This document shows positions 11,587 to 48,467 of a DNA stretch of 64,000 bases, piece by piece. Each line of letters starts with the position of its first letter. The stretch's first letter is position 1. This DNA comes from a bacterium (lineage in GTDB: Bacteria; JAJVIF01). The position numbers and the translations under genes were made by a program. The notes under the pieces are model-generated. The model was not told the DNA's origin, made no database searches, and saw only the letters and a list, made by a program, of their open reading frames with translations. The stretch spans positions 302,221-366,220 of the forward strand of contig JAJVIF010000002.1 of NCBI GenBank assembly GCA_022072165.1, given 5' to 3'.

Positions 11587-12582
11587 TTAGAACTGGAACG
11601 TCGCCAGGGTCCGCCAGCCTTCTGTACTGTAATGGTAGTCGTCGGTTAACCGCTCAATTTTCGGTCCTTGCGGACCGATCGGATCCGGCACGAAGTTTTC
11701 ATTCAGGCCGATACCATCGATCCAGCGAGGGCGCCCGTCCGCCAGGATCACCCGCCAACGGATGTCCTGCGTTGAGTCGTTAGCCTCCAACAGCACCCCT
11801 CCTGGGCCAGGCCACGCCTGATGGGGGAGCGGCATCCCCTCCCCCCTCGGTACGCAGTCCACCATGGTCCAGAGTTCCTCAATCGTCTCAGGAAAGCGCC
11901 CCCGATCGGTCGAGAATTTAAAGAGGAGCTGGGAGTATGTTTCTGCAAGATGTTTTTGTCGAATGCGCAATGGGGTGTCTGGTGGACGTCGCGTCCCGGC
12001 GAGGAATTGCCGGGCCTGCTCGTAGCTCCGCACATAGAAGCCGACATTCACCACATCCACCGTGTGCTTGTCTACCGGCATCTGGCGGGAACCATGGATT
12101 TCAATCCGGAGTTGTTCCGGTGCAAAGTCGAGCCATACTCCTGGGGACTCCGGGGGCACCGAAGCGCTGGCCGTGTGCAGTGTCAGCGGTTGCCCTTGAC
12201 TGTTTGCCGGTGCCAGGAGCCAGAGCCCGGCGGCCTCCAGGGCTGCGGCATCCGGAGGCAACCCGCCTGTGAGTTTCAGATAGCTGCGAACACATTTGGT
12301 CAGAGAGTGCTGCACGAAACTGGCCTGCAGCCCAGTAATGTGCACCTGGTGATCGGCCATCCAGCCCTGGTAGTACCCGGTGCTGAACTCGTTTGCGCTG
12401 AATCGCGCAGTTGCAGGAACGGTAGCCGAGGGCCGTTGCTGGGGAGACGCCGGAGGAAGAAACTGGCGCTGCAGTGCTCCCAGCTGTGACAACCCGGACT
12501 GACTGCATCCGGGCGTTACGACTCCACCCAGTAACAGCAGGACCCCGATGATCCAACGCTGACTTTGCATGACGACTGACAT
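11587..12582 (-). CDS. Cassette A lipoprotein with pseudopilin-like GxxP motifs, unknown family
   Basis: 331 residues. The chosen ATG (12580-12582) has GGAGG eight nt upstream; an in-frame GTG at 12591 is an alternative. The N-terminus is a signal sequence (WIIGVLLLLGGVVTPGC) with a Cys in a lipobox-like setting, although TPGC is a weak match. Two motifs of the form aromatic/Leu-x-Y...G-x-(L/F)-P...E-x-L are seen: SYLKLTGGLPPDAAALEAAGL and FSTDRGRFPETIEEL, resembling the helix-to-loop part of type II pseudopilins. It lies 42 nt downstream of the Cys-rich gene and is probably co-transcribed. The lipoprotein at 36651 shares this layout. It ends convergent with the pentapeptide gene. Confidence 0.7.
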   Translation of the reverse strand: MSVVMQSQRWIIGVLLLLGGVVTPGCSQSGLSQLGALQRQFLPPASPQQRPSATVPATARFSANEFSTGYYQGWMADHQVHITGLQASFVQHSLTKCVRSYLKLTGGLPPDAAALEAAGLWLLAPANSQGQPLTLHTASASVPPESPGVWLDFAPEQLRIEIHGSRQMPVDKHTVDVVNVGFYVRSYEQARQFLAGTRRPPDTPLRIRQKHLAETYSQLLFKFSTDRGRFPETIEELWTMVDCVPRGEGMPLPHQAWPGPGGVLLEANDSTQDIRWRVILADGRPRWIDGIGLNENFVPDPIGPQGPKIERLTDDYHYSTEGWRTLATFQF

Positions 12583-12624: not shown

Positions 12625-13209
12625 TCAGACTTCCGTCGGACAGCAGTCCGACTCCGCACAGTTCAGACAGATCTCGGGTGGATACCCGGCTGCGGAGCAA
12701 GGCCCGGGAAATCCGGGGGGCACGAAGCAATTCTGGCCTTCCATCGGCGTCGGTGGACACAACTCATGTGATGAGCGCTCAGGGTCATTACTCCAAATCT
12801 CGAAATAGCTCAGATTGCCATAACAGAGATTGAATTTATCGCAGCCTACAGACGACCCAGTGATCTCATGGCGACCGCCTGCGGCATCGAAAAGCAGCGC
12901 CGGGATTGTTTCGCAGGCCTCTGCCCCTAACCATTCGCCACTCTCTTCTTCCCGATGGAAACAAGCCAGATCTGCCCACGGGCCGACGGTTTTCACCTGG
13001 TAATTGCAAACCATGAGCGTATGCGTAACCGGGTCCTCACAAACATAGGTAACAGGCTTGCTGCAATGAACAAATTCTTCCACGTAGTAGACGCAGCAGC
13101 CGAAATCCACGGGCTCTTCCGAATGCCCCACTTGGGGAGCTAAAAGCACCACCACCGCCAGGGCCAGCAACCCGGCTTTACGGACTAACGTGAAAGATCT
13201 GAAGCGCAT
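12625..13209 (-). CDS. Cassette A secreted cysteine-rich protein, unknown family
   Basis: 194 residues from the ATG at 13207-13209, with GAGGAGG nine nt upstream; a longer open frame to 13299 runs through the promoter and is rejected. A signal peptide (KAGLLALAVVVLLAPQVGHSEE) is followed by a mature part of about 165 residues carrying 16 Cys, including two CC pairs (GCC near the start, DCCPTEV at the end). The even number and export suggest a disulfide-knotted extracytoplasmic protein. No known fold is recognised. Its promoter contains a 17-nt CT repeat, so expression may be phase-variable. The lipoprotein gene follows by 42 nt. Its counterpart is at 37739-38152. Confidence 0.72.
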   Translation of the reverse strand: MRFRSFTLVRKAGLLALAVVVLLAPQVGHSEEPVDFGCCVYYVEEFVHCSKPVTYVCEDPVTHTLMVCNYQVKTVGPWADLACFHREEESGEWLGAEACETIPALLFDAAGGRHEITGSSVGCDKFNLCYGNLSYFEIWSNDPERSSHELCPPTPMEGQNCFVPPGFPGPCSAAGYPPEICLNCAESDCCPTEV

Positions 13210-13248
13210 GATGCGGCACCTCCTCACGGTCATGTTTACTGTTATCTG

Positions 13249-13277
13249 ATTATAGAGAGAGAGAGAGAGAGAGTCAA
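13249..13277 (-). promoter_or_regulatory. Sigma70-like promoter of cassette A with CT-repeat spacer
   Basis: On the minus strand -35 is TTGACT (13277-13272) and -10 is a perfect TATAAT (13254-13249), exactly 17 nt apart. The whole spacer is the alternating sequence (CT)8C. The -10 box ends 39 nt before the ATG at 13209. Gain or loss of one CT unit would change the spacing to 19 or 15, far from optimum. Confidence 0.8.
13255..13271 (-). repeat. CT/GA dinucleotide microsatellite, 8.5 units
   Basis: Read on the + strand this is GAGAG... from 13255 to 13271, and the CT that ends the -35 box continues it. It is the only long dinucleotide run I noticed in the window. It forms the entire spacer of the cassette A promoter. 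Confidence 0.95.
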
Positions 13278-13307
13278 GCGTCCTCAATGAAATTGTCACG
13301 ACACAAA

Positions 13308-13331
13308 CATCCCCCGGTTGCCCGGGGGATG
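13308..13331 (-). terminator. Hairpin terminator between murC and cassette A
   Basis: CATCCCCCGG (13308-13317) and CCGGGGGATG (13322-13331) form a perfect 10-bp stem with a 4-nt loop, followed on the minus strand by TTTGTGT. It lies 30 nt before the -35 of cassette A, insulating it from murC. An equivalent hairpin is at 38249-38271. Confidence 0.65.
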
Positions 13332-36650: not shown

Positions 36651-37703
36651 TTATGGCAAGCGATGGTGACCAGTGGACTGAGACTGCGCCAGATTGGCGG
36701 GATCAGCGGGTCGTGGAGCATCGATGCGTGGCACGGTCTGCAAGGTACTCCAGTCCGCCCAGAATTCCACACCCCGCAGCCAGGAGTCGATGCTCTGCTG
36801 GACTCGCGGGTTCGTGGGATATCCCACCGGGAGTACCGAGGTGTTGCGACCATCTGCACTCTCATGTTTCAACAGCAGGCGCGGCTCGGTCGATGAGCCC
36901 TCAAGAAGCAGCCCAAAAGACTGTCCATCTCCTGAACGGAAAAAGGTCCGTTGTGGATATGCCGCTTCCAGCGCACCGACTGATTCGCGAATCAGCGCGA
37001 GTTCGTACATTTGGAACGCTTCCAGTGGAGTCACTGGATAGCTTCCAAGCTGCGCACGATAGGTAGAGATCACGAGACAGAGATTTGAGGCGTACATCCC
37101 GAGGCTGGGATCGACACCCCGGAAATCCTGCTGGCGCAAGCGTGCACCGGTTTCGGTCTCCCATGAAGGCGCAAAGAAGCTCGTAAAGGGCCGCAAAGGA
37201 GCCCCATCGAATGCCGTCGACTCGATCACCAGATCGAACGGCTGGAGAGTAGATCGCGGATCAAGCCACATCTGAGGGTACTGCGCCGTAGGTCCAGCTG
37301 CCCACAGCGGCCAGGGTACACCATCCGGCGTAAGGGGCCAGGCGACAGTCCCTGGTAGCAGATTTTCGACGCGCGAGGGAAGCTGTCCGTTAACGCCATA
37401 GTGCAGGTTAAGAGCATTGTTTAGCAGCGGCAGCATCAGAAGACGCTGCGCAATCGCGATACTGTGCACATCGCCCTGCTCCAGCCCGGAACGCAGATCA
37501 AAGGAACGTAACTGCGCCTCAGTCCAGTCAGCGCCAGGCTGGGTGGCGACTCTCGCGGATGCCGGAGGTGTCGGGTCCAAGGTTTCCAAGGGACGGGAAC
37601 TTTGTTCCCGGCCCCCCACCTGACAGCCATTGAGGACGACAACCGCCCACAGCAGAATGCCGCTCAGGCTAAGAACTGCGTACCGTTGAGTTGTAGCTAT
37701 CAT
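36651..37703 (-). CDS. Cassette B lipoprotein with pseudopilin-like GxxP motifs, unknown family
   Basis: 350 residues from ATG 37703 with GAGGAG seven nt upstream. The signal sequence ends in a good lipobox (VVVLNGC). As in cassette A there are two Y-x-x-x-x-G-x-(L/Y)-P...E-x motifs: LHYGVNGQLPSRVENLL and YRAQLGSYPVTPLEAF, separated by an extracytoplasmic stretch with MWLDPRSTLQPFDLVIES (compare VWLDFAPEQLRIEIHG in A). The two are likely distant paralogues. It lies 35 nt after the Cys-rich gene and is probably co-transcribed. The C-terminus is Pro/Gln-rich. Confidence 0.7.
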   Translation of the reverse strand: MIATTQRYAVLSLSGILLWAVVVLNGCQVGGREQSSRPLETLDPTPPASARVATQPGADWTEAQLRSFDLRSGLEQGDVHSIAIAQRLLMLPLLNNALNLHYGVNGQLPSRVENLLPGTVAWPLTPDGVPWPLWAAGPTAQYPQMWLDPRSTLQPFDLVIESTAFDGAPLRPFTSFFAPSWETETGARLRQQDFRGVDPSLGMYASNLCLVISTYRAQLGSYPVTPLEAFQMYELALIRESVGALEAAYPQRTFFRSGDGQSFGLLLEGSSTEPRLLLKHESADGRNTSVLPVGYPTNPRVQQSIDSWLRGVEFWADWSTLQTVPRIDAPRPADPANLAQSQSTGHHRLP

Positions 37704-37738: not shown

Positions 37739-38152
37739 TTAAGGACACTGTACTTCCCGTATGACCACTGTACCCGGACCCGAAAGTGGCGGGCAATCGT
37801 TCGTGCACCAGAAGTATCCTGGTTGTACGCAGGGATTGGAGGCTGTCGCTGTATAGCTCCCGGTGCATTCGATTCTTGACGCATACTGACCAGACTCCAC
37901 CAGTTCACAGGGCTCTTCGCACGGCTCCTCTGCTCCCAGCACATAAAGGTCATAACCCTGTTCTGTGCCGCCGGAAAAAGTAATAGTCACCGGAATCATC
38001 CCGACAATGAGGCAGTCACAGAAACACTGGACTTGCAGGCTTGTACAAGCGTTCAGGGAAGGGAGTGGGCAGTGACAGCAATCAGCATACGCTTGCCCTC
38101 CCACAAGGCTCCCTCCAATGGCGACGATCAGGGCCAGTTGCAGTCGTTTCAT
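37739..38152 (-). CDS. Cassette B secreted cysteine-rich protein, unknown family
   Basis: 137 residues from ATG 38152 with AAAAGG ahead; the longer open frame to 38227 runs into the promoter. A signal peptide (LQLALIVAIGGSLVGGQAYA) precedes a mature part of about 115 residues with 14 Cys, starting CCHC and including CFCDC. It differs in sequence from the cassette A protein but matches in export, even Cys count, promoter layout and the following lipoprotein gene. A disulfide-rich extracytoplasmic protein is likely; no known fold is recognised. Confidence 0.72.
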   Translation of the reverse strand: MKRLQLALIVAIGGSLVGGQAYADCCHCPLPSLNACTSLQVQCFCDCLIVGMIPVTITFSGGTEQGYDLYVLGAEEPCEEPCELVESGQYASRIECTGSYTATASNPCVQPGYFWCTNDCPPLSGPGTVVIREVQCP

Positions 38153-38191: not shown

Positions 38192-38220
38192 ATTCTCTCT
38201 CCCTCTCGCGCGCCTGTCAA
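38192..38220 (-). promoter_or_regulatory. Promoter of cassette B
   Basis: On the minus strand a perfect -35 TTGACA (38220-38215) is 17 nt from GAGAAT (38197-38192), which matches TATAAT at 4 of 6 positions. The box ends 39 nt before the ATG, the same as in cassette A. The spacer is GC then GA-rich but not a clean repeat. An alternative -10, AATACT, would need a 20-nt spacer. Confidence 0.5.

Positions 38221-45929: not shown

Positions 45930-48467
<2,538 letters not shown>

Follow-up and report, generated by a model that had tools for sequence, protein, structure and literature searches.

Repeats in at least nine promoters of cysteine-rich secreted proteins and lipoproteins suggest a built-in system for random surface variation

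The window promoter and its cassette

A promoter whose whole spacer is a dinucleotide repeat raises a question: does its output change when the repeat changes length? In the window, by which we mean the entire 64,000-nucleotide stretch of DNA analyzed, the initial annotation had predicted a phase-variation switch of this kind. Read from the minus strand, the promoter is cgcTTGACTctctctctctctctctcTATAATcag (13277-13249). A consensus scan placed the -35 hexamer TTGACT at 13272..13277 (5/6 of consensus) and the -10 hexamer TATAAT at 13249..13254 (6/6 of consensus), and the 17 nt between them (13255..13271) are pure (CT)8C, exactly as had been annotated. Among the five sigma70-like sites found by the scan in 12 kb, this promoter ranked first, with 11/12 matches and a 17-bp spacer. 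A repeat search returned a perfect CT tract of 20 nt, or 10 units (13273-13254), which overlaps both hexamers, taking in the CT of the -35 box, with which it had been described as continuous, and the T that opens the -10 box. Since each hexamer shares letters with the repeat, adding or removing a unit alters only the distance between them and leaves the hexamers themselves intact. The same search bore out the statement that the window holds no other long dinucleotide run; in the rest of the 64 kb none exceeds 9 nt.

The genes assigned to this promoter, a secreted cysteine-rich protein and a lipoprotein, are indeed those that follow it, both on the minus strand. The first (12625..13209) encodes a 194-aa secreted protein with 16 cysteines, in which a signal peptide is followed by a CC motif; it has a ribosome-binding site, GAGGAGGTG, 7 nt 5' of its ATG, and an alternative in-frame ATG at 13233. 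Its protein had no match in Pfam, no significant match in the PDB, and matched only itself in a search across 40 genomes. The second gene (11587..12582) encodes a 331-aa lipoprotein with the lipobox VTPGC. Co-transcription of the two is plausible, given that they are about 40 nt apart, that no terminator was seen between them, and that their order recurs elsewhere in the genome. Upstream of the promoter, behind murC, a hairpin with a T-rich tail (CATCCCCCGG...CCGGGGGATG; 13308..13331, minus strand) looks like a terminator by eye and is absent from the list returned by a terminator scan. A MutS gene, an 871-aa open frame, lies on the plus strand of the window at about 45975-46310.

This gene pair belongs to a recurring two-gene cassette, consisting of a cysteine-rich protein and a lipoprotein of about 330 aa. 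The window lipoprotein is homologous to four cassette partners (C1:1545.6k, C1:1543.9k, C2:37.9k and C3:105.5k; phmmer E 1e-8 to 3e-4), and many cysteine-rich genes are followed by a lipoprotein of 310-420 aa that overlaps them or begins within about 70 nt. The window itself carries a second cassette on the minus strand, encoding a 137-aa secreted protein with 14 cysteines and a CC motif (37739..38152) and a 350-aa lipoprotein partner with the lipobox LNGC (36651..37703). Its promoter, TTGACA - GGCGCGCGAGAGGGAGA (17) - GAGAAT (38192..38220, minus strand), is of the same type but degenerate, with an interrupted AG tract as spacer, and is probably a fixed relative.

Repeat tracts and gene class across the genome

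We searched the whole genome to which the window belongs (3.26 Mb in four contigs, 99% complete) for AG/CT, GT/AC, AT or RT-mixed tracts of at least 13 nt. Eleven were found, and nine of them directly follow TTGAC. All seven CT/AG tracts do so (on the coding strand, two CT and five AG), as do two of the four further tracts from the GT/AC and AT search. With 0.00044 occurrences of TTGAC per position on each strand (once per ~2,250), and allowing both orientations and three offsets, the chance probability of at least nine of eleven tracts standing behind TTGAC is about 3.7e-22. The initial annotation had treated the window promoter as a single site; the site is real, and the genome contains at least eight more of its kind. 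The window tract has 10 units and the others 7-13, with 8 or more in eight of the nine; PhasomeIt takes 8 or more units as its cut-off for dinucleotide tracts (PMC5953494). Like a contingency locus, the window promoter carries a tract long enough by this measure to slip, and that tract lies in the core promoter, where its length sets the -35/-10 spacing.

There are two exceptions among the long tracts. At C4:114752-114773, a (GT)10 tract without a good -35 box leads directly into TAAGAT and precedes an 88-aa lipoprotein gene. At C2:574788-574800, a 13-nt CA tract lies about 20 nt before a lipoprotein gene (376-aa frame).

Microsatellites expand by themselves once seeded, and such neutral repeats might happen to fall in intergenic DNA. 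The placement of nine of eleven tracts directly behind TTGAC, with a single gene class downstream, contradicts this explanation, as does a comparison with shorter tracts: of five 10-11-nt tracts in 1.24 Mb sampled, four are not behind TTGAC. The one that is, at C3:238709, is a (GT)5 that takes up the 3' portion of the spacer in TTGACA-N20-TAAACT. We regard a neutral origin as scarcely credible.

The class of gene downstream is uniform. In all nine cases the next gene lies within about 12-71 nt and encodes a protein of 150-195 aa with 11-19 cysteines, and all nine proteins have a signal peptide or a lipobox, as judged by eye and by a crude hydrophobicity filter. The tract genes encode exported or surface products, and these may be exposed at the cell surface. 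In a census of cysteine-rich cassettes that covered 1.28 Mb together with partner-homology matches, the crude filter returned about two dozen cysteine-rich proteins of this type in the 1.28-Mb sample, with a few false hits, so the class makes up a small share of all genes. Three tract lipoproteins form a related group (C2:54.0k, C2:552k and C3:163.5k; blastp E 7e-31 to 1e-4), and the two GT-tract genes are likewise related (blastp E 3e-28); the remaining tract proteins have only a layout in common, with a signal peptide, a few residues and a CC motif. The cassette proteins searched had no match in Pfam, NCBIfam (curated cut-off) or the PDB. AlphaFold models were poor (pLDDT 36 for the cysteine-rich protein and 56 for the partner lipoprotein, whose two helix-plus-sheet repeats reached about 70-78 at best), and Foldseek found no match to them. 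A pseudopilin-like fold for the partner lipoprotein was considered and dropped in view of the poor model and the empty Foldseek search.

A change in repeat length could act on translation, by shifting either the gene's own frame or that of a leader, and not on transcription. In the window, the gene's frame stays open back across the tract as far as a GTG at 13299, and three other loci likewise have open frames. At six of ten loci, by contrast, a stop codon lies in frame between tract and start codon, which excludes a frameshift switch there, and in the window the GTG and TTG starts ahead of the tract lack a ribosome-binding site, which makes such a switch unlikely. Translational phase variation places the tract inside the reading frame, and it would leave the constant abutment on TTGAC unexplained; we consider it very improbable.

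The nine tracts are not mere copies of one another. Their flanks, compared over 120 nt on the upstream and 60 nt on the downstream side, showed no similarity beyond chance words, and copying was rejected for want of shared flanks. As AG, CT and GT on the coding strand cannot be interconverted by slippage, these dissimilar flanks point to at least three origins. Other cassette promoters carry longer units. The 10-bp tandem repeat CTGTTACYCG (3.5-6 copies), whose length is close to one helical turn, occurs at exactly three sites in the genome (C2:39355-39392, C3:75421-75478 and C4:59468-59505; stretches L223, L226 and L231), each time 5' of a cysteine-rich secreted-protein gene and just after a TTGAC-N17-(-10) promoter. 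Three more cassette promoters have tandem arrays of TCTCCCTA (8 bp, 4.9 copies), CGAAGTACG (9 bp, 5.1 copies) and AGTTCCTGC (9 bp, 2.6 copies), at L247:940-978, L258:2644-2689 and L250:1268-1290. These 8-, 9- and 10-bp arrays stand just after the -10 box or in its region, in place of a dinucleotide tract. The different tract units with unrelated flanks, together with the arrays behind the -10 box, suggest that unstable repeats have been recruited to cassette promoters several times.

Promoter spacing and the effect of repeat length

Ten related cassette promoters without a dinucleotide tract served as a reference for spacing. A -10 box with A2 and T6 stands at 17 bp in eight of them, at 16 in one and at 14 in one. 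Throughout the sampled sequence, counts of TTGACN-Nx-TAnnnT also peak at 16-18 bp (6, 11 and 7, against 0-5 at other distances). From these two results we take 17 bp to be the organism's usual spacing, and the related promoters suggest that it is the optimum for the tract promoters as well. The spacers of the nine tract promoters, measured to the best -10 box, range from 15 to 25 bp: 17 (TATAAT, the window), 21 (TACAAT), 19 (GAGAAT; or 21, GAATAT), 19 (TAACCT), 17 (GAGAAT), 16 (TATTGT), 15 or 17 (GAGAAT/GAATAT), 25 (TACTTT) and 17 (TAGCGT), with several of the -10 boxes being weak (3-4 of 6) and their spacings uncertain by one unit. In three tract loci the -10 box stands 6-8 nt 5' of the ATG, the geometry of leaderless mRNAs, which supports its assignment.

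In a rival reading, the spacers would be a fixed feature. Several spacers of 19-21 bp recall MerR-activated promoters (PMC8113463), and all tracts serve one gene class, as would be expected if a MerR-like or GA/CT-binding regulator co-regulated that class through a pliable or overlong spacer of invariant length. MerR-type promoters have a 19-20-bp spacer with a dyad operator, whereas here the spacers are pure dinucleotide repeats; AG, CT and GT units offer no common binding sequence, the tracts are perfect, spacer lengths are scattered from 15 to 25 bp, and related promoters have 17 bp without a tract. We consider such a regulator unlikely.

We think it highly likely, instead, that slippage makes the window promoter a switch or dimmer of transcription. 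Its CT tract would serve as the spacer of a sigma70-type promoter, and replication slippage would add or remove 2-bp units without touching either hexamer, so that the -35/-10 distance would step through 15, 17, 19 and 21 bp. The changed spacing would then alter transcription of the two-gene cassette. The assembled window allele, at the 17-bp optimum, is probably ON. At least eight further promoters, built likewise with spacers of various lengths, would cause cells to differ in the secreted or surface proteins they make.

How sharp such a switch would be is less certain. Promoters in E. coli stay fairly active with spacers from 15 to 19 bp, perform best at 17 and yield less outside that range (PMC8695583), so a change of one unit may dim the promoter rather than silence it. 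The annotated claim that 17 bp is the optimum agrees with E. coli and with eight of the ten related promoters, and a step of one unit from it, to 15 or 19 bp, may bring a graded response in place of strict silence. In a version of the slippage mechanism that is compatible with it, the tracts would vary and fine-tune expression as a rheostat, with no ON/OFF states. The high activity of E. coli spacer libraries from 15 to 19 bp (PMC8695583) and the repeat rheostat described for H. pylori sabA (PMC4081817) favor this version, to which we give tentative credence. Against it, some alleles combine a weak -10 box with a spacer of 21 or 25 bp, for which near-silence is likely.

Several points count against a slippage switch: the weakness of some -10 boxes, the tolerance of E. 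coli for 15-19 bp, the lack of such promoters in three class relatives, and the presence of an encoded MutS. Mismatch repair restrains dinucleotide slippage in other bacteria, and slippage rates here may therefore be modest. The prediction of phase variation is thus supported in part: the promoter anatomy and its recurrence at nine promoters of one gene class, with spacers of 15-25 bp against mostly 17 in related promoters, speak strongly for it. Taking the family as a whole, we lean, with less confidence than for the window promoter, towards a dedicated contingency system, in which dispersed, lineage-specific cysteine-rich and lipoprotein cassettes independently recruited CT, AG and GT spacers and 8-, 9- and 10-bp arrays to their core promoters, and through which a clonal population would display many protein combinations, possibly to its benefit.

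Comparison with other genomes and known systems

Most known cases of phase variation by repeat length come from host-adapted pathogens and commensals. The lineage studied here is poorly known, and it appears to have introduced the mechanism several times into core promoters of a single, uncharacterized gene class. If the lengths vary, the cysteine-rich proteins would be where the species varies in its contacts with phage, predators, kin or a host, and the promoters would provide both a ready list of loci for metagenome reads and a natural promoter series with spacers of about 15 to 25 bp.

A survey of 384 other genomes from ~258 families turned up no more than one or two clean dinucleotide tracts abutting TTGAC in any genome (G016, G019, G219 and G376), compared with eight clean ones here, and the same promoters were not found in three class relatives. 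In G016, which belongs to another phylum, TTGACA-(AG)14-TATAAA (L219) precedes the nearest long reading frame by ~300 nt; in the unrelated G019, TTGAC(AC)n (L195) lies directly upstream of a lipoprotein-like gene of 313 aa or longer. Our search of the literature on repeats in uncultured or environmental bacteria found no precedent.

Of the two precedents named in the initial annotation, Haemophilus stands and Neisseria does not. In H. influenzae, the divergent fimbrial promoters of hifA/hifB contain (TA)9-11, a dinucleotide tract proposed to change the -35/-10 spacing of surface-protein genes (PMC2651432, citing van Ham 1993). In Neisseria, homopolymers occupy the region between -35 and -10, and dinucleotide tracts reportedly stay constant (PMC5953494, PMC5320596). 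The likeness that does hold for porA and fetA/frpB is slippage within the -35/-10 spacer of outer-membrane protein genes (PMC5320596). Their homopolymers change in 1-bp steps, whereas the tracts here are dinucleotides. The sabA tract of Helicobacter pylori, for its part, is not known to be the -35/-10 spacer of its promoter. It is similar in that the length of a promoter-region repeat sets how strongly a surface protein is expressed, and its effect is graded (PMC4081817). In Mycoplasma gallisepticum, the promoters of an entire family of lipoprotein genes, vlhA, carry a variable repeat (PMC6258824), although there a single unit, GAA, lies upstream of the core promoter, while here several units lie inside it or just after the -10 box. 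The hifA/hifB system differs in having a TA unit at divergent promoters of one fimbrial locus, as opposed to the CT, AG and GT units found here, where nine or more promoters scattered over the genome serve novel cysteine-rich proteins. By analogy, the mechanism proposed here resembles that of the Haemophilus hif promoters, and its family-wide deployment with multiple repeats would be the new part.
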